DNA of 64,000 nucleotides from IMG/VR virus record IMGVR_UViG_3300025141_013434, positions 1 through 64,000 of that record. The stretch is one strand, 5' to 3'. Below the pieces are notes generated by a model, which worked only from the letters and a program-made list of their open reading frames with translations, was not told the DNA's origin and ran no database searches. The position numbers were made by a program, and so were the translations under genes. The DNA comes from a virus. Shown here piece by piece: positions 6,631-31,875 of the stretch (position 1 is the stretch's first letter; each line of letters opens with the position of its first letter).

Positions 6631-6825
6631 TTATTTTTTGCTTAGTATTTCACATTCGCTGGCTAGGACATAGAGTAGGTTCTTTTCTACTGGACTGTAT
6701 GCCAAATACTTATGTTCGATAATCGCGGGACTTCCAGATGCATGAACCGATATTACTATCATTGGATCGTGCCTGTGTGCCCACGGTTTAACTGATCTTA
6801 TTAAGTCTCCACAGTCCGCTATCAT
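6631..6825 (-). CDS. Hypothetical protein (64 aa)
   Basis: I start it at the ATG that overlaps the previous stop (ATGA) rather than at an upstream TTG. The product begins MIADCGDLIRSVKPWAHRHD and has a hydrophobic strand near MIVISVHASG. No family recognised. Confidence 0.55.
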   Translation of the reverse strand: MIADCGDLIRSVKPWAHRHDPMIVISVHASGSPAIIEHKYLAYSPVEKNLLYVLASECEILSKK

Positions 6826-7040
6826 CGACACTTTTTGACGCGGCTGATGCGACAAATCTTGTGGCCGTAACGATTATAACGACATTTTTTTTGTCGGACA
6901 GTGCGACAATCTCTTCTGCGGCGGACCTCGACATCGACGCCCGAATCGATAACAACCGATGGGCCAACGAGTCGATGCGGACGGGCGTGTATGGTGCAAC
7001 CCATAAAACTCAACGACAGCAGTAACATTAAAAATTTCAT
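6822..7040 (-). CDS. Small basic lipoprotein
   Basis: ATG at 7040 follows GGAG. The signal peptide MKFLMLLLSLSFMGC ends in a lipobox with Cys 15. The mature part is very basic, with runs of arginine and a C-x6-C, C-x4-C spacing near the end. It has its own sigma-70-like promoter (7062-7090), so it may be expressed early. A surface or periplasmic role is inferred; the function is unknown. Confidence 0.65.
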   Translation of the reverse strand: MKFLMLLLSLSFMGCTIHARPHRLVGPSVVIDSGVDVEVRRRRDCRTVRQKKCRYNRYGHKICRISRVKKCR

Positions 7041-7061
7041 TTTAATTCTCCATTTTTTATA

Positions 7062-7090
7062 ATCATAAAACAAATAATCTCAAAAGTCAA
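7062..7090 (-). promoter_or_regulatory. Sigma-70-like promoter (TTGACT-17-TATGAT)
   Basis: Minus strand -35 TTGACT (7090-7085) and -10 TATGAT (7067-7062) are separated by exactly 17 bases, each matching five of six consensus positions. The predicted start is about 15 bases upstream of the lipoprotein ATG at 7040, and the site lies in the gap after the gene at 7099. Confidence 0.7.
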
Positions 7091-16640: not shown

Positions 16641-18224
16641 TTATTTTGGATCGACCTGAATTATGGCGCTATCTGTCGTTATTAGTGTCCCTGCTACTGA
16701 TGCCGCGTTCTGGAGCGCACATCTAGTTACCTTTGCTGGGTCGATAATTCCTGCTTCGAAAAGATTTGTAACTTCTCCCGTCGCAAAATTCAACCCCTCC
16801 TCTCTGGAGCCTGAATCGGATAGGGAAGATAAAACCTGCTCTTTTGAAATGCCTGAATTTTGAGCCATTGTGAATAACGGAGCTGACAAGGCCCGCTTGA
16901 CTATTGCTACTCCTTTCTCTTGATCCTCGTTTTCCACTTGCACCTCTAAAGAACTTGATATTCGATGGAGCATCATGCCGCCACCTGGAACGACTCCTTC
17001 CTGTTGTGCAGACCTAACTGCCTCCAGGGCGTCTTCAATTCTATGCTTCTTTTCTATCATCTCCACCTGAGTGGCGGCACCAACCTTAATAACAGCAATG
17101 CCGGAAGCAAGGCGTGTAATTCTTTCCTGTATGGTTTCTGCCTCATGCAATGATTCTGTTTGCTCAATCTCTGCCTTCAGAGCTTCGATCCTACTTTGCA
17201 CCTCTTTATGGTCGCATGCGCCGCCAACGATGGTCGTAAGGTTCTTCAGAATTTCGACACTCTTAGAAGACCCCATATCTGTAAGTTTAACGTCTTTAAT
17301 ATCAACTCCAGTTTCCCGCCTAAAATAGGTGGCACCTGTAGCTATGGCTAAATCGTTCATTAAACTTCTTCGGGCCTCTCCATAGAGAGGGGCCTTCACC
17401 GCAACCACCTTCATAGTTCCCCTTATGGTATTCATGATCAACGCGGCGAGAGCTTGGCCTTCGATTTCGTCTGCAACGATGACAAATGGACGACTCTCTC
17501 TCGCAGCAAGCTCAAGGGCTGGCAGGATTTGTTCAACCCTCTCAAGCCTAGAGTCCGTGATCAGAAATATCGGATTCTCATACCTAACTGAACCTCTTCT
17601 TTCGTCTGTGACGAAGGCCGTCGCAGCGTAGCCAGATCCGAGCTTAAAACCCTCCACAAGATCAAGTGTAGTTTCGATCGATCGAGCTTCCTCGACAGTG
17701 ATGGATCCATCCTTCCCCACTTTGTCGACAGCCATTGCGATAAGGTTTCCAATCGTACTATCGTTATTGGCAGAAATCGATGCTATGTGAGCTATATCCT
17801 CGACGCTTTGTATGGGCCGGGCCGACTGCTCTACTTGCCTTACAACCTCCCTTACGGCCCTCTCAATACCCCTCCTGAGTTCAACTGGGTTATTCTTGTC
17901 ATCATCCAAGAACTCTCCAGCCTCATCAAAAATGGCTTTTGTCAAAACAGTTGAAGTTGTTGTGCCATCGCCTGCATCGAGATTGGTCTTTGCCGAAGCT
18001 TGCTTTACAAGCTGTGCTCCCGCATTCTCAATCGGGTCGTCCAAGTCAACAAACTTGGCAACCGTTACACCGTCCTTCGTTATGATTGGCATCTTGCCTT
18101 TTTCTTGCAAAATGACGTTGCGGCCGCGTGGACCTAACGTAGACGCAACATGGGTGGCCAAAGTATCGACCCCTTGAATTAGTTTTTGGCGTAGTTCTGC
18201 ACGAGAACTGAACTGTTTAGACAT
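16641..18224 (-). CDS. groEL: GroEL-type chaperonin (60 kDa)
   Basis: The 527 residues cover the whole GroEL plan. The equatorial ATP site has LGPRGRNVILQ, TKDGVTVAKFVD and AGDGTTTSTV (Asp 86 in the key position); the apical domain spans roughly residues 190-370; the second equatorial part has GVVPGGGMML and ends without the GGM tail. A group I chaperonin needs a co-chaperonin, and a GroES/gp31-like gene lies at 31260. T4 uses host GroEL with its own gp31 to fold the capsid protein; a phage with its own GroEL probably folds gp23 independently of the host. An exact sigma-70 promoter precedes the gene, implying early expression. Confidence 0.96.
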   Translation of the reverse strand: MSKQFSSRAELRQKLIQGVDTLATHVASTLGPRGRNVILQEKGKMPIITKDGVTVAKFVDLDDPIENAGAQLVKQASAKTNLDAGDGTTTSTVLTKAIFDEAGEFLDDDKNNPVELRRGIERAVREVVRQVEQSARPIQSVEDIAHIASISANNDSTIGNLIAMAVDKVGKDGSITVEEARSIETTLDLVEGFKLGSGYAATAFVTDERRGSVRYENPIFLITDSRLERVEQILPALELAARESRPFVIVADEIEGQALAALIMNTIRGTMKVVAVKAPLYGEARRSLMNDLAIATGATYFRRETGVDIKDVKLTDMGSSKSVEILKNLTTIVGGACDHKEVQSRIEALKAEIEQTESLHEAETIQERITRLASGIAVIKVGAATQVEMIEKKHRIEDALEAVRSAQQEGVVPGGGMMLHRISSSLEVQVENEDQEKGVAIVKRALSAPLFTMAQNSGISKEQVLSSLSDSGSREEGLNFATGEVTNLFEAGIIDPAKVTRCALQNAASVAGTLITTDSAIIQVDPK

Positions 18225-24020: not shown

Positions 24021-27000
24021 CTATGCCAATAACTTAAATTCTGAAGAAAGCTTTCTAGAACTGAATCCCCATTGAGGGTGGTAACTCAGCTTTGCCATGT
24101 AAGGCCTATTGATATGAATGAAGTCCTTATCTGGCCTAACGCCCCAACACTTTATAGACCTGATTTCGCTATTGCTGTCTATAACTCTTACGATATAATA
24201 ATCTTTATTATTCTTCGTTTTCTTTTTAATAATTTCTCTTGGTATGAACCATACGACTCGTAAATCCCTATCATATTCGCTAATAGGAGGCACGTAAAGC
24301 TCGCTTAGGCGACGGCGCAGGTTCTCGTCCATGACTAGATTCATCGGGAACACACCCGTCAAATCCACCAAATATTCAATCTTCTCTTCTTCCGTAAAGT
24401 CTCCTTCTTCGACATATCTCTCAATATTGTCAGTCAGGTTCTTTTCTTTCCTCGGTCGATCGACTGCGACGGCAGACCAAAAGTGCTTAAGGCCCTGGAA
24501 CCTCTCATCCATCAAGGGGTTTAGTGCCTGAGACCTCACCAGGACGTCCAAGGCCTTCTTGTTTAATTTACTGTAAATTATCTCCTCATTGAAGAGAAAT
24601 TCCTCGATTTTATTAAACGGCCTATTATTTATAATCTGCTCAATCGCCTTTTCACCAAGACCCTTTATTGATGTCAAGGGTTGGATCAAAGTCTCGCCGG
24701 CGGGTGAGATCTCCCAAACCGCACCAGAAGTATTTATGTTCAGCGGCTCTATGTCGAACCCAAAACTCTTGGCAACATTTATTGCCTTTTCTTTGCGAGA
24801 GTCTGGCTCCTTATCTAAGAATGCTGCGACCCACTCAGAAGGGAAATAGTTTAATAACCAAGCACACTGATAAGAAAGCATGCAGTATGATACAGCATGA
24901 GACTTGTTAAAGCCGTACCCAGAAAAATACTCGAACTTCTCCCATAATTCCTTGGCTTCATATTTTTTAATTCCTTTTTCTAAACAACCTTCAAGAAACT
25001 TAGAATAGATCTTATCCTTTTCTTCCTGAACAGCTCCGGTGCCTTTCTTAGTTAGTAGCTTCCTTAATTTATTACCCTCATCTAGAGAAAGATCCTTTCC
25101 TAGTTTGTGGGCTAGTAATGCAATTTGCTCTTGAAAAATCAAGAAACCAAAGGTTTCACCGGTTACATCCTTCACTACATCATTTAAGTATTCTACTTCC
25201 AGGGGGCTCCTCTTGGCGTCTATAAACTGTCTATCTACTCCCGCGGACAGTGGTCCGGGTCGATAAATAGAAGTAATGGCAGCCAACTCAATTATATTAT
25301 TAGGCTTTGCCCTTTTGCAAAAGGATTGCGCTCCAGTTTCTGTAAACTGAAATACGCCTGCCCACTTGCCATCATGAAATATGTTCTTCCAGACATCCTT
25401 GTCACTCAAGTCCAAAACTTCAGGATGCAAGTTTTCGTCATAATATTTCTTGACATCTGCAAAAGAAGGACTGTCGTTTCCATGATGTCTCTTTAGAATA
25501 TGCCTGATAGCACCCTCGATCATTCGAAGAGAAGCTAAGCCCAAGATATCAAACTTGATAAATCCCATGGGCTCTAGGTGCCTAACATTTTGGCCTTCAC
25601 TCCAAGGGGTTTGTCGAATGCCACCGCTGTTAATCAAAGGCATCCACTCGTCAAGGTTCTCTCCAACAACAACACCACCGGCGTGCCTACTGGCAGATCT
25701 TACTTGACCGTATAAAGCCTCTATGTGTGTTTTAATGTGCGGGTACTTTTTCAAGAACGCCTTTAAGCTTTCCGAGTAAAGCATTAATTCCTCAAAAGTT
25801 GGAACGTACACTCCTGCTGTAATACCGTGGGCTTTCTTTGCAAGGGGCGTAGCTTCGTACATCATTTTGCCAGTTACGCTGTTAACCTCAACAAAAGGTA
25901 CGCCATAGAATTTGGAGATATCCTTAATAAGAGACCTAAGTTGCAGTGTGTTCCAGTTGGTAATTGGAACCACAGTGTTATCACCCCACTCCTCTATGAG
26001 TTCTTCTTTGAGGGACATCGGATCTGCTACGTCATAATCAATATCTGGATAGCCCGAGCCGCCGACCGTCAAAAATCTCTCGAACTGAAGGCCATACTTA
26101 ATCGGGTCGACTTGTGTAATTCCGAGTACATAAGCAACTAGTGAACCTGCTGCAGAGCCGCGGCCTGGACCAACCAATTGCTTCTCTGTGGCCCGGTCTG
26201 CAATGGCCTTCATTGTCAAGAAATATTTACTAAACCCTCGGCCGTCGATGACTTCGATCTCCCTCTTTAGCCTAGAAGCATATTCTAAATTGTTTCCCAA
26301 CCCGAGAGTCCTAACACCTTCCATACATAACTTAGCAAGGGCTGCTCCCGGGGTTGTATCGGCAGGTACAACAAAGTCAGGTAAACGCACAGTATTATCT
26401 GGCATAAAGCTTTCTATCATCTCATGTGCTATGAAATGCGTCTTCTTTATGGAATCAAGGACCAGTTCGTCGTCGTATTCTTCTTCGCAGTCTTTAGAAT
26501 ACTTTTTGTAAGATTCCCACATTTGATCCCCGTTCTTGGGGTAAAGCTCATAACCGATCTCTTCAACATCGATTGGAAGCTCATTACCCATCCATTCCGG
26601 GCGCTTGCCAAGCCAGCCGAGGCGCTTATACAGTTCCCTATCTTTCCACGCTTCTGGACTATAATAGTGGCTGTCTGCAGTTGAGATAAGCGGAACGCCA
26701 AACTCGCGATGCATTTGAATAATATACCTGTTTAGATCATGCTGTTCCGGGATATTGTTCCATTGCAACTCTCCGAACCATCTATCGCCAAAAATTGATT
26801 GCATCTTTTGAGTGGTTTGTCTCATCGCGTTCAGAACTGCGTCTTCGCCGTCTTCTCTATTTTCCCGCATGGCGACAGCATAGACGCCGCCCAAGCATGC
26901 GCTAGCGGCAATTACACCCTCACTATGCCTTTTAAGGGCTGCATAGTCAACCCGGGGAAACCTATAATAGTTCTCCGCTTGGTAGCTGCTGGAAATAAGC

Positions 27001-27458
27001 TTAAATATGTTCTTTAATCCCGTTGGATTTTGAGCTAGCAAGATTAAGTGGCTTTTGCGATTTAGAAGACTCTTAACCGCCTTTTTAGATCCTTCGTCTT
27101 CGACAGTAGCGCCTGACTGTGTGTCTTCCAGGGATGACTTGTTTTTTGCCTTTTCTCTTGCCTGTTCATAGTCCTTTCTCCAGTTAGAGATAGAGGGAAT
27201 AAAATAGGCCTCGACACCGAAAATAGGCTTGAACTCCTTACCATCCTTCTTCATCTTCTTTGCGTGAAGAACTTGATATGCAAGTCCGTTTGCGTTGCCA
27301 TGATCTGTTAGTGCTAATGCATCCATTCCGTTGCCATATGCGAAATCCATATGCTCTGCAGGATATCCCAGGGCGTCAAAAATACTCCCAGCGACTGAAT
27401 GTGCATGCAAACCCACGAAGGGAATTTTTGAATTTTTACGTTCCACCTTGTTATTCAA
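24021..27458 (-). CDS. dnaE: DNA polymerase III alpha subunit (family C)
   Basis: About 1145 residues, the length of bacterial DnaE. The N-terminal PHP domain has GLHAHSVAGSIFDALG and ALTDHGNANG with metal-binding histidines intact. The palm has SGYPDIDYDVAD (two catalytic Asp, about residue 472) and IKFDILGLASL (third Asp, about 636). Fingers and tail contain FLIFQEQIALLA and YGFNKSHAVSYCMLSYQ, and an OB-like domain follows. The start is probably the TTG at 27458, six bases after GGAG. A complete DnaE in a T4-type phage is unusual, since T4 uses family B gp43. The host beta clamp or a phage clamp outside the window would be needed. Confidence 0.95.
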   Translation of the reverse strand: MNNKVERKNSKIPFVGLHAHSVAGSIFDALGYPAEHMDFAYGNGMDALALTDHGNANGLAYQVLHAKKMKKDGKEFKPIFGVEAYFIPSISNWRKDYEQAREKAKNKSSLEDTQSGATVEDEGSKKAVKSLLNRKSHLILLAQNPTGLKNIFKLISSSYQAENYYRFPRVDYAALKRHSEGVIAASACLGGVYAVAMRENREDGEDAVLNAMRQTTQKMQSIFGDRWFGELQWNNIPEQHDLNRYIIQMHREFGVPLISTADSHYYSPEAWKDRELYKRLGWLGKRPEWMGNELPIDVEEIGYELYPKNGDQMWESYKKYSKDCEEEYDDELVLDSIKKTHFIAHEMIESFMPDNTVRLPDFVVPADTTPGAALAKLCMEGVRTLGLGNNLEYASRLKREIEVIDGRGFSKYFLTMKAIADRATEKQLVGPGRGSAAGSLVAYVLGITQVDPIKYGLQFERFLTVGGSGYPDIDYDVADPMSLKEELIEEWGDNTVVPITNWNTLQLRSLIKDISKFYGVPFVEVNSVTGKMMYEATPLAKKAHGITAGVYVPTFEELMLYSESLKAFLKKYPHIKTHIEALYGQVRSASRHAGGVVVGENLDEWMPLINSGGIRQTPWSEGQNVRHLEPMGFIKFDILGLASLRMIEGAIRHILKRHHGNDSPSFADVKKYYDENLHPEVLDLSDKDVWKNIFHDGKWAGVFQFTETGAQSFCKRAKPNNIIELAAITSIYRPGPLSAGVDRQFIDAKRSPLEVEYLNDVVKDVTGETFGFLIFQEQIALLAHKLGKDLSLDEGNKLRKLLTKKGTGAVQEEKDKIYSKFLEGCLEKGIKKYEAKELWEKFEYFSGYGFNKSHAVSYCMLSYQCAWLLNYFPSEWVAAFLDKEPDSRKEKAINVAKSFGFDIEPLNINTSGAVWEISPAGETLIQPLTSIKGLGEKAIEQIINNRPFNKIEEFLFNEEIIYSKLNKKALDVLVRSQALNPLMDERFQGLKHFWSAVAVDRPRKEKNLTDNIERYVEEGDFTEEEKIEYLVDLTGVFPMNLVMDENLRRRLSELYVPPISEYDRDLRVVWFIPREIIKKKTKNNKDYYIVRVIDSNSEIRSIKCWGVRPDKDFIHINRPYMAKLSYHPQWGFSSRKLSSEFKLLA

Positions 27459-28326
27459 TTGGTGCTCCAATTTTGCTATATTTTGATTTTTTAAACATCG
27501 ATGCTGAAGGCCTTTTTAGTTTGTCGCTTTCTGAACTTTTCCAGAAGTCCTTCAAACCCTCCCATGTATCTGTCCTGTGATACCAAGGCAATTCAAGCTT
27601 TTTAGACTCTACAATATTACCACATCCAAATATTTTGTCAAGTGTAAAATGCCTAGAAGACCATCTTTCTTCTGGCGGGAGACTTTTATCCCCCAATGTA
27701 CAACTTTCCTTTATCGACCTCACGTATTCTTTGTATTCCTCTCCACTCATCGTAAAGCCTAAATATTCCCCATCTCTTACAGTCTTGCCCTGAAAAGACA
27801 AAAAGAAAGGATCCTTATGGGAAATCTGCTTTCTGTAGCTAGAGACCGTTTCCGGTGGATAGACCCCGTATGGGAAAGTTATGTAATATCGGCTTGGCAC
27901 TAACCACTTGCTTATTTTATTACTAATTACAAATGCGTTAAGAGCGCCATGGAGCGCAGCCCACCCAAGGCTGTCTCGGCGGTCACGGTCCTTGGGGTGA
28001 ATCGGGCAATAAAATATGGGAATTTGCCTTCTGTGTTCGCTGGGAAATTTTACAAAATTCGACTTTGATAGGTAATATGGATCTTCTATGTAGTCACCCA
28101 TCCTATGTCTAATGAGCGGCTGCATGTCGTCGTTGCAAACAACCCATATCGTCTCGCAGCCCGCATAGGCACACTCTATAATGGCGCGTTCAACCAAGAG
28201 GTAATTTTCATTAATCGGCTGCATGCAGTCGTGCCAGGGAAAATCAAAATCTAGCTTTTGGCCAGCAACTGGAACAATTCCTGCCAAATGGAAAGCCTTT
28301 ATGTTTTCAGATCCGGGCTCCAGCAT
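27451..28326 (-). CDS. Nucleotidyltransferase-like protein
   Basis: The N-terminal part reads FHLAGIVPVAGQKLDFDFPW, then PINENYLLVERAIIECAYAGCETIWVV, which has the plan of sugar-nucleotide transferases: a strand-loop nucleotide site, then a helix and the strand ending in a diagnostic Cys-Glu-Thr. The canonical GGxGTRL signature is altered to AGQKLDF, so activity is uncertain. Related proteins occur in marine T4-type phages. ATG at 28326 is chosen over an upstream TTG. Its gene overlaps the preceding one, suggesting that the two act together. Confidence 0.55.
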   Translation of the reverse strand: MLEPGSENIKAFHLAGIVPVAGQKLDFDFPWHDCMQPINENYLLVERAIIECAYAGCETIWVVCNDDMQPLIRHRMGDYIEDPYYLSKSNFVKFPSEHRRQIPIFYCPIHPKDRDRRDSLGWAALHGALNAFVISNKISKWLVPSRYYITFPYGVYPPETVSSYRKQISHKDPFFLSFQGKTVRDGEYLGFTMSGEEYKEYVRSIKESCTLGDKSLPPEERWSSRHFTLDKIFGCGNIVESKKLELPWYHRTDTWEGLKDFWKSSESDKLKRPSASMFKKSKYSKIGAPIE

Positions 28327-29119
28327 ATTTTTCAATTATTTCTTTTTCTGTTAAGTCCAAAAACTTAACATTTTCTAAATCTCTATATTTTGTTTTTGAA
28401 ATCTTGAGAACTTCCCTGTAAGAGGGCTCAACCTTCACGCTATATCTTTTCGGTTTATCACCCGGATTGACACCACTCTTCGCTCCTTTGATTCCGTTCC
28501 TTCTCATTAGATCTTCTACTTTAAATTTCACCATCGTATCAGAGTAGTTAAAATCCGAAATCTGCTGTTTTGTTAAATAAGAAACCGCGACGAGATCCTT
28601 TTTGTTGTGCTTACCGTCAATGCGCTCTGACTTGTAAAAGTGAACCTTATTTACGAAGTCGTCACTAGTGTCTATAATCTCAATATCGTGCACCGACCCA
28701 GATCTAACATTTACCCAATCTAAAACCCTGTATCTATCTGGTTGATCTGGCAGGGGATCTACAATTTCTGCCTGTATTTGTACACTGTCCGAGTCAAAAA
28801 TAAAACAATTATCAAATTTATTTTTTATCACAGAAGATTCTCTAATTGTAATACTTATATTATTCCCTGAGATGCGAATGGAACTGACGTCCTTGCCATA
28901 AGGAGAGAGACCGTTCATACCCATCTCGAATAAAAGAGTCGACCATATTGTGCGCTTTCGGCGTGTTGGTACACTAATCTTCCCTATATCTACGTCTTTT
29001 GAGAGCTTGTCGAATCGAAACGGGCCGCGGTGAGATGGTAAGAGAATCGTGTAATCATTTAAATAAGCAAACAAAATAGCGGGAAGGCCATTCCCTATTA
29101 CTATGTTTCTGTGGTTCAT
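28307..29119 (-). CDS. Phage protein with Rossmann-like N-terminus
   Basis: The ATG overlaps the previous TGA as ATGA. The opening RNIVIGNGLPAILFAYLND resembles a dinucleotide-binding beta-alpha-beta unit (GxGxxA), as at the start of FAD-dependent oxidoreductases, but later FAD motifs are not evident. Residues after 200 are basic. It is paired with a nucleotidyltransferase-like gene, so a role in modifying a sugar, base or protein could be imagined. I do not recognise the family with confidence. Confidence 0.55.
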   Translation of the reverse strand: MNHRNIVIGNGLPAILFAYLNDYTILLPSHRGPFRFDKLSKDVDIGKISVPTRRKRTIWSTLLFEMGMNGLSPYGKDVSSIRISGNNISITIRESSVIKNKFDNCFIFDSDSVQIQAEIVDPLPDQPDRYRVLDWVNVRSGSVHDIEIIDTSDDFVNKVHFYKSERIDGKHNKKDLVAVSYLTKQQISDFNYSDTMVKFKVEDLMRRNGIKGAKSGVNPGDKPKRYSVKVEPSYREVLKISKTKYRDLENVKFLDLTEKEIIEKYAGARI

Positions 29120-31191
29120 ATGCAAAGATTATCTTTTGTCATCATACACATCACCCGCTTATATAGTGATGGCTTTTTATCAACTGGGCCAAGGCATGCC
29201 ATTTCAGGCTCTTCCCCCTCCTCTTCATCATCTTCTTGAAGGCATGCCGCCTCATCTATTGCGGTTTGTACAGCCTCGGAAATGGTCCTCTCATTTCGAG
29301 CGCCGGCGCGTCTGGTGATTGCCGAATAGTACTCCGCACCTGCAGCAATGAGGTTCTGGTAGCTATCTCGTACCCATTGATCTGGTGTGCCAATTATAAA
29401 TGCCATCCCTTGCGATCTCCTCATAGCGTCGACAACTTCAGCTTCATCCCAAAAATCTCCTTGGGCGGGCTCATCACCCATGACCACAACTATTCTGTGG
29501 TTCATGGCAGATAGATCAATAGAGTGCACTGGATTGTTGGGATCATTGGTGTTCCACACTATATCATCTGGTGTGCCGTCTTGGTCCCAGTCAATTAAAT
29601 CATCTGTAAAAAAGTCGCCCATTGCATCGAAAGTGTTCTCGGAACTTCCTCCCTGGTTTATCGTTCCGTTTCGAAGGTTGGTCATTAAGATTGACACTGC
29701 GTTTGACATGTCATCATTTGAAAACGCATCAAAGCCGGGGACGCAAGTATGGGCCGGGACAGACAAATATGGGTCAAATTGGTGGTCATTGCCCACGACC
29801 GCTAGCAAGTAACATATGTCCATTGCACCTTCGTCAAACAAGTTTTGTATGGTATTGGTGATCGATGTAAAGGCCTCATTAAGTTCATCTGCTTGCATTG
29901 ATCCTGATATGTCCATAACTACCATGACTGCGACGGTACCTTGATTAAAGCCTTCGTCTGGAATACCATCACAATCATCATCGATATCGTTACATCTCTC
30001 GTTGGCTGGTAGTATTTCTTGTAAGCATTCGAAATACCCCCACTCAGCTTCACCTTCATCATCCTGCCTCTCGTCACAGAAGGCCAGACCGACCCTACAA
30101 TGATTTCCAACGTACTGTGGGCCATCCTCTCTCCTGTCGAATGTGTTTATTTCGCCAGTAAGTACATCTGTAGCGCATAGTGTAGTTAAGGGCCCGCCAT
30201 TTGGACCTTCGTCGATTTGGCCGTCGCAGTCTTCATCAATACCGTTACAAACCTCTGGTTGAGGGACGTAAGTTGGGTTTCCGCACTCGCAGTTCCCGAG
30301 ACCCTCATCTACTTGACCATCACAGTCGTTGTCGATATAGTCGCACAACTCGGACGGGAGATCTCCACACAAACCACACGCATTCAGAAAACCCTCATCT
30401 ACTTGACCATCACAGTCGTTGTCGATGTCGTCACAAGTCTCATCTGGAAGTTCTCCACAACGGAAACACGCATTAAGTAGGCCCTCATCGGTCAGGCCGT
30501 CGCAGTCATTGTCAAGACTATCACAAACTTCTTCTGGCAGGGGAGCGCATTGACCACAGGCGTTGGTCACACCCTCATCGGTGCTACCATCACAGTCGTT
30601 GTCTAAGAGATCACAAGCCTCGTCTCTCGGCATTTGCTGGCCAACACAGCGGTGATAGCCCCACCCAAAGTCTTGGTCCAATTCACAGGTCCTAGTGCCG
30701 CCTACACATAAACCAACTTTAAGAGTTTCGAGGGGCGCGTCATAACAAGGTTGAGAAAGCGTATTATTCTGACTAGTGCCAGGAGCCTCATTTATGCTAC
30801 CGTCGCAGTCATCGTCCATACGATTGCATACTTCCATCCTAGGATTTACTACTTGCCGGCAAGAAGACCATTCTGTAATTAAACAACTTCTTTCCCCATA
30901 GGAACATGGGCCCTGAAGGTTCACGATCTGGCACGGATCCGTAGCTCCCGCGGGAGTACAGACTACTGGAGGCCCAGCATCTACTTCTGCGTCTACTTCT
31001 GCGTCTACTGCAGCATCCCATTCTGGTATCCCTGCATCAACAATGGCGTCCGGATCGCTGGATGCATCTCTTACTGGTGAAGGCAAAAAAAGATCAGGGC
31101 CCGAAGACCATGGTGATGCGGACCTATCCTCACAAGATAGCGTAAAAATAGACAATGCTACTGTAATAATGCTGATTAATTTTTTGTTCAT
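29116..31191 (-). CDS. Lipoprotein with MopE-type repeats and VWA domain
   Basis: Residues 1-20 are a lipoprotein signal with lipobox LSC (Cys 20). A short acidic linker follows. Residues 119-415 hold seven copies of a motif of the type E-x-C-x-x-x-D-x-D-C-D-G-x-x-D-E-G, as in MopE-family metal-binding repeats. Four of these are a regular 30-residue tandem array (about 191-300). Residues about 420-640 form a von Willebrand A domain with the MIDAS start VVMDISGSM and a later VVVMGDEP. Such surface proteins are frequent in Myxococcota and relatives, not in phages. It probably sits on the outer membrane and binds a partner through metal ions. GGAAG precedes the ATG. Confidence 0.85.
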   Translation of the reverse strand: MNKKLISIITVALSIFTLSCEDRSASPWSSGPDLFLPSPVRDASSDPDAIVDAGIPEWDAAVDAEVDAEVDAGPPVVCTPAGATDPCQIVNLQGPCSYGERSCLITEWSSCRQVVNPRMEVCNRMDDDCDGSINEAPGTSQNNTLSQPCYDAPLETLKVGLCVGGTRTCELDQDFGWGYHRCVGQQMPRDEACDLLDNDCDGSTDEGVTNACGQCAPLPEEVCDSLDNDCDGLTDEGLLNACFRCGELPDETCDDIDNDCDGQVDEGFLNACGLCGDLPSELCDYIDNDCDGQVDEGLGNCECGNPTYVPQPEVCNGIDEDCDGQIDEGPNGGPLTTLCATDVLTGEINTFDRREDGPQYVGNHCRVGLAFCDERQDDEGEAEWGYFECLQEILPANERCNDIDDDCDGIPDEGFNQGTVAVMVVMDISGSMQADELNEAFTSITNTIQNLFDEGAMDICYLLAVVGNDHQFDPYLSVPAHTCVPGFDAFSNDDMSNAVSILMTNLRNGTINQGGSSENTFDAMGDFFTDDLIDWDQDGTPDDIVWNTNDPNNPVHSIDLSAMNHRIVVVMGDEPAQGDFWDEAEVVDAMRRSQGMAFIIGTPDQWVRDSYQNLIAAGAEYYSAITRRAGARNERTISEAVQTAIDEAACLQEDDEEEGEEPEMACLGPVDKKPSLYKRVMCMMTKDNLCI
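30292..30621 (-). repeat. Tandem 90-base coding repeat
   Basis: Nearly four units of about 90 bases encode the regularly spaced MopE motifs with the intervening ACGxC linker. Neighbouring units share long identical stretches (for example the ACTTGACCATCACAGTCGTT segment occurs twice on the plus strand), which indicates expansion by recombination or slippage. Confidence 0.8.
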
Positions 31192-31259: not shown

Positions 31260-31574
31260 TCAACTTCTGAGAATTCCCATAACATAATTTTCCAAAATTA
31301 CATAAAACTTCTTTCTTTTGTGTGTTATTTCTTCTATCATGGATCTGTCCACAAGAATGTCTGTAGCCTCGCTAAAGCCTGGACGTAATTGACGAATGTC
31401 TTCCGTACAGTCAGGTGCTACGTCTACTACAGTAGCAGAAACCCACCTCTCCTGTTCCGGCTTATAATCTTCTGGTAGCAAAACTCCATGGTCTGTTTTG
31501 TTTTCTTTTTTGAAGTGCGGCACCACAACCAGATGCCGGTTTAGCGGCTTGAGTGATAATACTCTATTAGGCAC
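31260..31574 (-). CDS. GroES/gp31-like co-chaperonin
   Basis: The 104-residue protein has the GroES plan: an early strand LNRHLVVVPHF, a mobile-loop region containing DHGVLLPED, then VSATVVDVAPD and a C-terminal part KKFYVILENYVMGILRS that matches the Y-x-I-x-E-x-D-I-L-A-I end of co-chaperonins. Sequence is divergent, as is T4 gp31. It probably caps the phage GroEL encoded at 16641, or host GroEL, during capsid folding. The two chaperonin genes are separated by 13 kb and have different promoters. Confidence 0.75.
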   Translation of the reverse strand: MPNRVLSLKPLNRHLVVVPHFKKENKTDHGVLLPEDYKPEQERWVSATVVDVAPDCTEDIRQLRPGFSEATDILVDRSMIEEITHKRKKFYVILENYVMGILRS

Positions 31575-31846: not shown

Positions 31847-31875
31847 AGTATAAAAAATTAACGCTCAATTGTCAA
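31847..31875 (-). promoter_or_regulatory. Sigma-70 promoter (TTGACA-17-TATACT)
   Basis: Minus strand TTGACA (31875-31870) and TATACT (31852-31847), spacer 17 bases. Eleven of twelve consensus positions match. It drives the gene at 31567 and probably the GroES-like gene and the MopE/VWA lipoprotein behind it. Confidence 0.85.

Follow-up and report, generated by a model that had tools for sequence, protein, structure and literature searches.

The window analysed here, 64,000 nucleotides of a 145,243-base virus record, encodes a 691-residue lipoprotein in which seven cysteine-rich MopE repeats are joined to a VWA domain with a MIDAS metal site. The best overall explanation of this protein, to which we assign a probability of roughly 0.45, is that it is an envelope lipoprotein whose metal-dependent head would bind a ligand on the host envelope, most likely for superinfection exclusion. 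The gene and the features around it are collected in Table 1.

Table 1. Features of the lipoprotein locus, in window coordinates
Feature	Coordinates	Strand	Evidence
Sigma-70-type promoter-like site, TTGACA-17-TATACT, heading an operon of an 89-aa gene, cpn10 and the lipoprotein gene	31847..31875	(-)	Sequence; relatives' loci
cpn10/GroES-like gene, directly upstream	31260..31574	(-)	PF00166, E = 4e-7
MopE-VWA envelope lipoprotein gene, 691 aa	29116..31191	(-)	ORF; PF11617 x7; VWA by family profile and structure
Type II signal peptide, residues 1-20, lipid Cys20; lipobox FTLSC, +2 Glu, +3 Asp	31132..31191	(-)	Sequence; 53-sequence alignment; +2/+3 statistics
Seven Cys-rich MopE repeats, residues ~115-412, consensus EExC[DN]xxD[ND]DCDGx[IV]DE	29956..30849	(-)	PF11617; motif positions
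VWA domain, residues 417-650; MIDAS D427-x-S429-G-S431, E518, D522, D573-E574-x-x-Q577; conserved C650 at its end	29242..29943	(-)	Invariant columns; AF2 model; Foldseek
Acidic linker and C-terminal tail ending -NLCI	29119..29241	(-)	Sequence comparison of representatives
272-aa gene overlapping the lipoprotein 3' end	28307..29125	(-)	No family match; flank kept in the sister clade that lacks the lipoprotein
294-aa gene, conserved flank	27451..28335	(-)	No family match
DnaE, DNA polymerase III alpha, conserved flank; basis of the clade tree	24021..27470	(-)	phrog_405, E = 1.9e-218

A reading-frame check placed the start of the gene at an ATG codon. All parts of a type II signal peptide were found, namely a basic N-region, a hydrophobic core and a lipobox with its cysteine (MNKKLISIITVALSIFTLS-C; lipobox region ...SIFTLS-C20-ED), and Cys20 was invariant in an alignment of 53 full-length relatives. 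The window protein matched PF11617 over seven stretches (E = 2.6e-26; score 91.9 bits, cut-off 27 bits), with motifs of the type CxxxDNDCDGxxDE at residues 126, 197, 227, 257, 287, 319 and 404, and the same family was matched by all 14 members scanned. The lipoprotein architecture, the seven repeats and the MIDAS-bearing VWA domain described in the original prediction were therefore borne out, the last of these by a family profile comparison with the PDB, VWA_2 matches, the AlphaFold fold and an intact metal-site motif. At the extreme C-terminus, a terminal Cys-hydrophobic pair was present in 20 of 61 representatives; these include both VWA types and all belong to the window's clade. The pair was absent from the other predicted proteins of more than 80 aa in those parts of this genome that were checked. 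A separate small ORF (window 6822-7073; 83 aa) also has a lipoprotein-like N-terminus and is possibly a spanin-type protein.

The signal sequence bears on where the protein would reside. In enterobacteria, the Lol sorting rule is that Asp at +2 is avoided in outer-membrane lipoproteins. A strict lipobox filter left 48 relatives, in which the residue at +2 after the lipid Cys was mostly Ser, Glu, Gly or Thr, with Asp in only one sequence, while Asp was the commonest residue at +3 (25/48). The scarcity of Asp at +2 fits outer-membrane sorting under this rule, which is enterobacterial and may not be the host's. The protein also contains ~40 cysteines besides Cys20, which points to an oxidising compartment. 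From these sequence features we infer that the lipoprotein would leave the cytoplasm, acquire its lipid and be sorted to the outer membrane, and it is very probable that the infected cell makes it as an envelope lipoprotein specified by the phage.

The VWA domain is divergent in sequence, and on its own the window protein scored below the Pfam VWA cut-off (14.7 bits, E = 0.035; cut-off 23.8). A profile of the family's VWA domain matched integrin I domains in the PDB (E = 3e-6), and VWA_2 was matched by 7 of 14 family members (best E = 8e-8). An AlphaFold model built with 32 relatives adopted a VWA fold (pLDDT 75, pTM 0.76). In an alignment of 32 diverse sequences, most of which share 15-22% identity with the window protein, nine VWA columns were invariant (D427, G430, S431, M432, E518, D522, D573, E574 and Q577) and the MIDAS motif D-x-[ST]-G-S was nearly so. 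Invariance across sequences this divergent indicates strong selection on the metal site, and metal-dependent ligand binding by the VWA head is likely. Judged by the alignment, the phage VWA is a distinct subtype, defined by D-x-[ST]-G-S, D573-E-x-x-Q577 and an invariant Glu518 where alpha-I-type domains have Thr. Our reading of the alignment and the predicted fold is that Glu518 would occupy the third metal-ligand position; on this reading, with Glu518 invariant, the site is not an alpha-I-type MIDAS, which has Thr as third ligand.

When the VWA model was compared with the PDB using Foldseek, ranks 1-23 were all integrin headpiece structures, mostly beta chains (top match 4wk0_B, E = 3.3e-7), and the full-length model again matched integrin and VWF domains. 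The best fold matches are thus to the integrin beta I domain (PF00362), which has a MIDAS with Glu as third ligand, as the phage head would. Likeness to integrin beta at the level of sequence profiles was weak (beta-8, E = 0.0015), PF00362 itself was touched by only 1 of 14 members (E = 0.048), and the phage head differs from an integrin beta chain in that no hybrid domain is shown. Since the TM-scores were ~0.5 with high rmsd, the term integrin-like rests on the fold and the metal-site residues. We therefore describe the VWA head as integrin-like in its predicted fold and metal site, rather than as an integrin.

We examined the locus in the window and its relatives. The promoter-like site lies ~0.66 kb upstream of the lipoprotein gene, before the 89-aa gene and cpn10. 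Its consensus was matched at the same place in 18 of 31 aligned loci, and TTGA-type variants, judged by eye, were seen in most of the remainder; many of these 31 loci are near-duplicates. In many relatives thyX is also found upstream. The same phage carries a GroEL-like gene (window 16641-18224) alongside the GroES-like gene (31260-31574). The original prediction had placed the lipoprotein in a replication region behind a strong early promoter. The replication/nucleotide operon and the conserved promoter-like site agree with this placement, while early timing of expression is something that we infer from the sequence context.

The lipoprotein family is carried by viruses of bacteria, uncultured and mostly marine, that form a large group. 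Scanning viral contigs with a single sequence yielded 30 loci, and scanning them with a profile yielded 446 related stretches, from which we retained the best 80 (76 loci); over both scans, 96 viral loci, some of them near-duplicates, were examined. Nearly all complete copies in these loci combined a lipobox with 2-9 MopE motifs and a VWA domain bearing D-x-[ST]-G-S-M. The idea that the protein is foreign to phages found no support: the genes most closely related to it are numerous phage genes that share its context, and we therefore regard it as a stable phage gene family. A chimeric contig was rejected, as the same gene and flanks occur in L004 (98-100%), L005 and many other loci with gene order kept.

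In the window's clade, defined by DnaE identity of at least 73%, each of the 29 loci had the lipoprotein gene between cpn10/thyX and dnaE, whereas 27 of 27 loci of a sister clade (DnaE 68-71%) lacked it at that site and kept the neighbouring genes, both counts including near-duplicate contigs. In a 25-row DnaE tree, loci lacking the lipoprotein fell on one side of a branch with support of 100/100. Presence in all 29 loci ruled out a sporadic moron for the window's clade. At least one sister phage (G295) has a member of the lipoprotein family elsewhere in its genome. DnaE (window 24021-27470) itself marks a large uncultured viral clade, with 552 related IMG/VR stretches recovered from six short patterns.

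Within the clade, the locus holds a type A (VAVM...) or a type B (TDILF...) protein, and sometimes both. Type A proteins are ~45-52% identical to the window protein (83% for the nearest relative) and type B proteins 25-38%, at DnaE identities of 73-82%. On the DnaE tree the types must have switched at least two or three times, and several phages carry A and B in tandem. Two different MopE-VWA lipoproteins stand next to each other in L006, L118, L121, L123, L126, L127 and L134. The lipoprotein coding sequence is under purifying selection (pN/pS ~0.18 versus L005) and diverges faster than DnaE (dN ~0.45 versus 0.18). Fast divergence together with interchange and tandem arrangement of the two types is as expected for a ligand-facing protein; the lipoprotein is not alone in its rapid change, as the 272-aa neighbour diverges equally fast.

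In the mechanism that we propose, the infected cell would make the phage lipoprotein, export and lipidate it, and sort it to the outer membrane. There the MopE stalk, stiffened by disulfides and probably Ca, would hold the VWA head off the membrane, and the head would hold on to an acidic residue of a host-envelope ligand through a divalent metal. The receptor of the phage would thereby be occupied or jammed during infection, leading to superinfection exclusion and sparing progeny unproductive adsorption, as with the unrelated Llp in T5. Known exclusion lipoproteins are small and periplasmic, which counts against exclusion for a window protein of 691 aa; surface exposure, moreover, is not readable from sequence, which also counts against the explanation as a whole. 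Llp of T5 is a phage lipoprotein that blocks the phage receptor (PMC9586334). Llp and Cor (T5, T1) resemble the window protein in being phage-encoded lipoproteins, and they are made in the infected cell, as the window protein would be, with a likeness of purpose that may hold; they differ in being tiny, lacking a VWA domain and acting at the periplasmic face of FhuA. Membership of this small, single-domain class was ruled out by the length and multi-domain build of the window protein. By this analogy, superinfection exclusion as the use of the lipoprotein is a tentative proposal, somewhat short of even odds.

The strongest competitor is an adhesin that sticks the infected cell to other cells or surfaces in a metal-dependent manner, so that new hosts are reached or host contacts altered. 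An integrin-like MIDAS head on a long stalk and the kinship of the VWA domain with Myxococcota-type envelope lipoproteins would suit such a role. The predator Bdellovibrio bacteriovorus also uses an adhesin of this kind, Bd0875, a lipobox MIDAS protein found on the cell surface at the predator-prey junction, which needs its metal site, as the D66A mutant is without function (PMC11003981). Likened by description, Bd0875 and the phage protein share a lipobox and a MIDAS VWA domain, but Bd0875 is encoded by a cellular gene and has a small beta-rich domain where the phage protein has the MopE stalk. Bd0875 is a precedent for our favoured explanation as well. The benefit of adhesion to a lytic phage is not known, and we consider this role unlikely; between the two, we favour receptor occupation over adhesion.

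It is less probable still that the phage protein is a host mimic or envelope factor, a copy that stands in for, or competes against, a host member of its own lipoprotein family and in this way remodels the outer membrane. The search for the VWA domain covered the phyla represented by G001 (a MAG titled Myxococcales; 284 genomes), G292 (a Saprospiraceae MAG; 296 genomes) and G003 (145 genomes). The one strong match in these genomes (E = 5e-30) was a phage contig in a MAG of G001's phylum. Weaker cellular VWA domains (E = 1e-7 to 1e-13), mostly from the same phylum and several of them lipoproteins, had the same Glu and [ST]DE, whereas viral records, the positive control for the profile, matched at 1e-23 to 1e-81. 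Related VWA lipoproteins in Myxococcota-type genomes (L184, L192, L197, L203 and L204) speak for such mimicry, while the weakness of the cellular matches beside the viral ones and the general lack of MopE repeats in these proteins argue against it.

Judged by sequence, the nearest cellular relatives of the phage head are Myxococcota-type envelope lipoproteins, in agreement with the affinity originally proposed, and an origin from such lipoproteins is plausible. Like the phage family, several of these proteins have a lipobox, and those compared (L184, L191, L192, L195, L197, L203 and L204) share D-x-[ST]-x-S, a Glu ~90-100 residues after this motif, an Arg-containing stretch and [ST/G]-D-E; L195 also carries MopE motifs. 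They differ in their other accessory regions, mostly lack MopE repeats and have DExxQ only in some cases, and the phage members form a tight group of their own. The suggestion that the protein is the best clue to host identity fared less well: MopE-only proteins are common in Myxococcota and scattered elsewhere, MopE repeats were also seen in Bacteroidota, Patescibacteria and archaeal MAGs, and the sole strong whole-domain match in the 284 genomes is itself phage. That match is a 34.9-kb phage contig with the lipoprotein (G228:C1; L199, L200), and a single phage contig binned in one MAG was too weak to assign a host. Nor do the nearest cultured phages settle the host: the nearest annotated phage DnaE is ~30% identical, gp23 pointed to fragments of Flavobacterium, Microcystis and Rhodothermus phages, and RNR reached 64% identity in a Microcystis phage.

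It is very improbable that the protein is a virion component, for instance one that decorates the head or tail and adheres through its VWA domain. In lineage L023-L031 the lipoprotein gene sits among structural genes, between the portal/gp23 and sheath genes, a placement that would fit late expression and also weighs against our favoured explanation. Set against this are the invariant lipid Cys and signal peptide, the replication operon of the window's clade, and the PHROG search, in which the window protein matched no head or tail family and gave only a weak HNH-family match (E = 0.003). Together with the failure of the family to match any of 50,697 annotated phage records, this search upholds the view that it is not a phage virion family. 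Least credible is the metal capture first suggested, as a lipoprotein scavenging or storing copper or calcium: the Pfam name of PF11617 and the many acidic loops speak for it, but the repeats look like Ca-type acidic loops, the copper site of Methylococcus MopE consists of two His and a kynurenine rather than the repeat motif (PMC3423442), and the invariant MIDAS is left unexplained. MopE repeats of this kind occur in Methylococcus MopE and many Myxococcota proteins; in the window protein they are joined to a MIDAS VWA domain on a lipoprotein.

Two further features were seen in the relatives. An N-terminal tag like MK.L.E.WR.FL.E occurs on unrelated proteins of sister phages (L138:4986-7118, L139:369-920, L144:529-1275, L157:474-830 and L025:12018-12407); it resembles a capsid-targeting sequence, which may mean that certain enzymes are packaged inside the head. 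In one lineage a PurZ/PurA-like gene lies a few genes downstream of the lipoprotein (L144:7208-8233, L137:5950-6945 and L153:4859-5875; phrog_1211, E = 3e-69 in L144), a possible sign of modified-base DNA.

The MopE-VWA lipoprotein architecture appears to be undescribed in phages, as no description of the family was found in the searchable open-access literature. Since the protein is very probably an envelope lipoprotein, with an integrin-like head that would depend on metal, these viruses probably change the surface of infected cells, most likely by blocking a receptor or gripping another surface. A broader and rather doubtful extension is that many T4-related uncultured phages may display a family of integrin-like adhesins on the infected-cell surface, with two interchangeable head types for different ligands, and so remodel recognition during lytic infection. 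If our favoured reading is right, superinfection exclusion or infected-cell adhesion would be directly testable with one expressed gene, and a large uncultured phage clade would be investing ~2 kb in an integrin-like envelope lipoprotein, which would be a new type of phage surface takeover and a marker for the clade.
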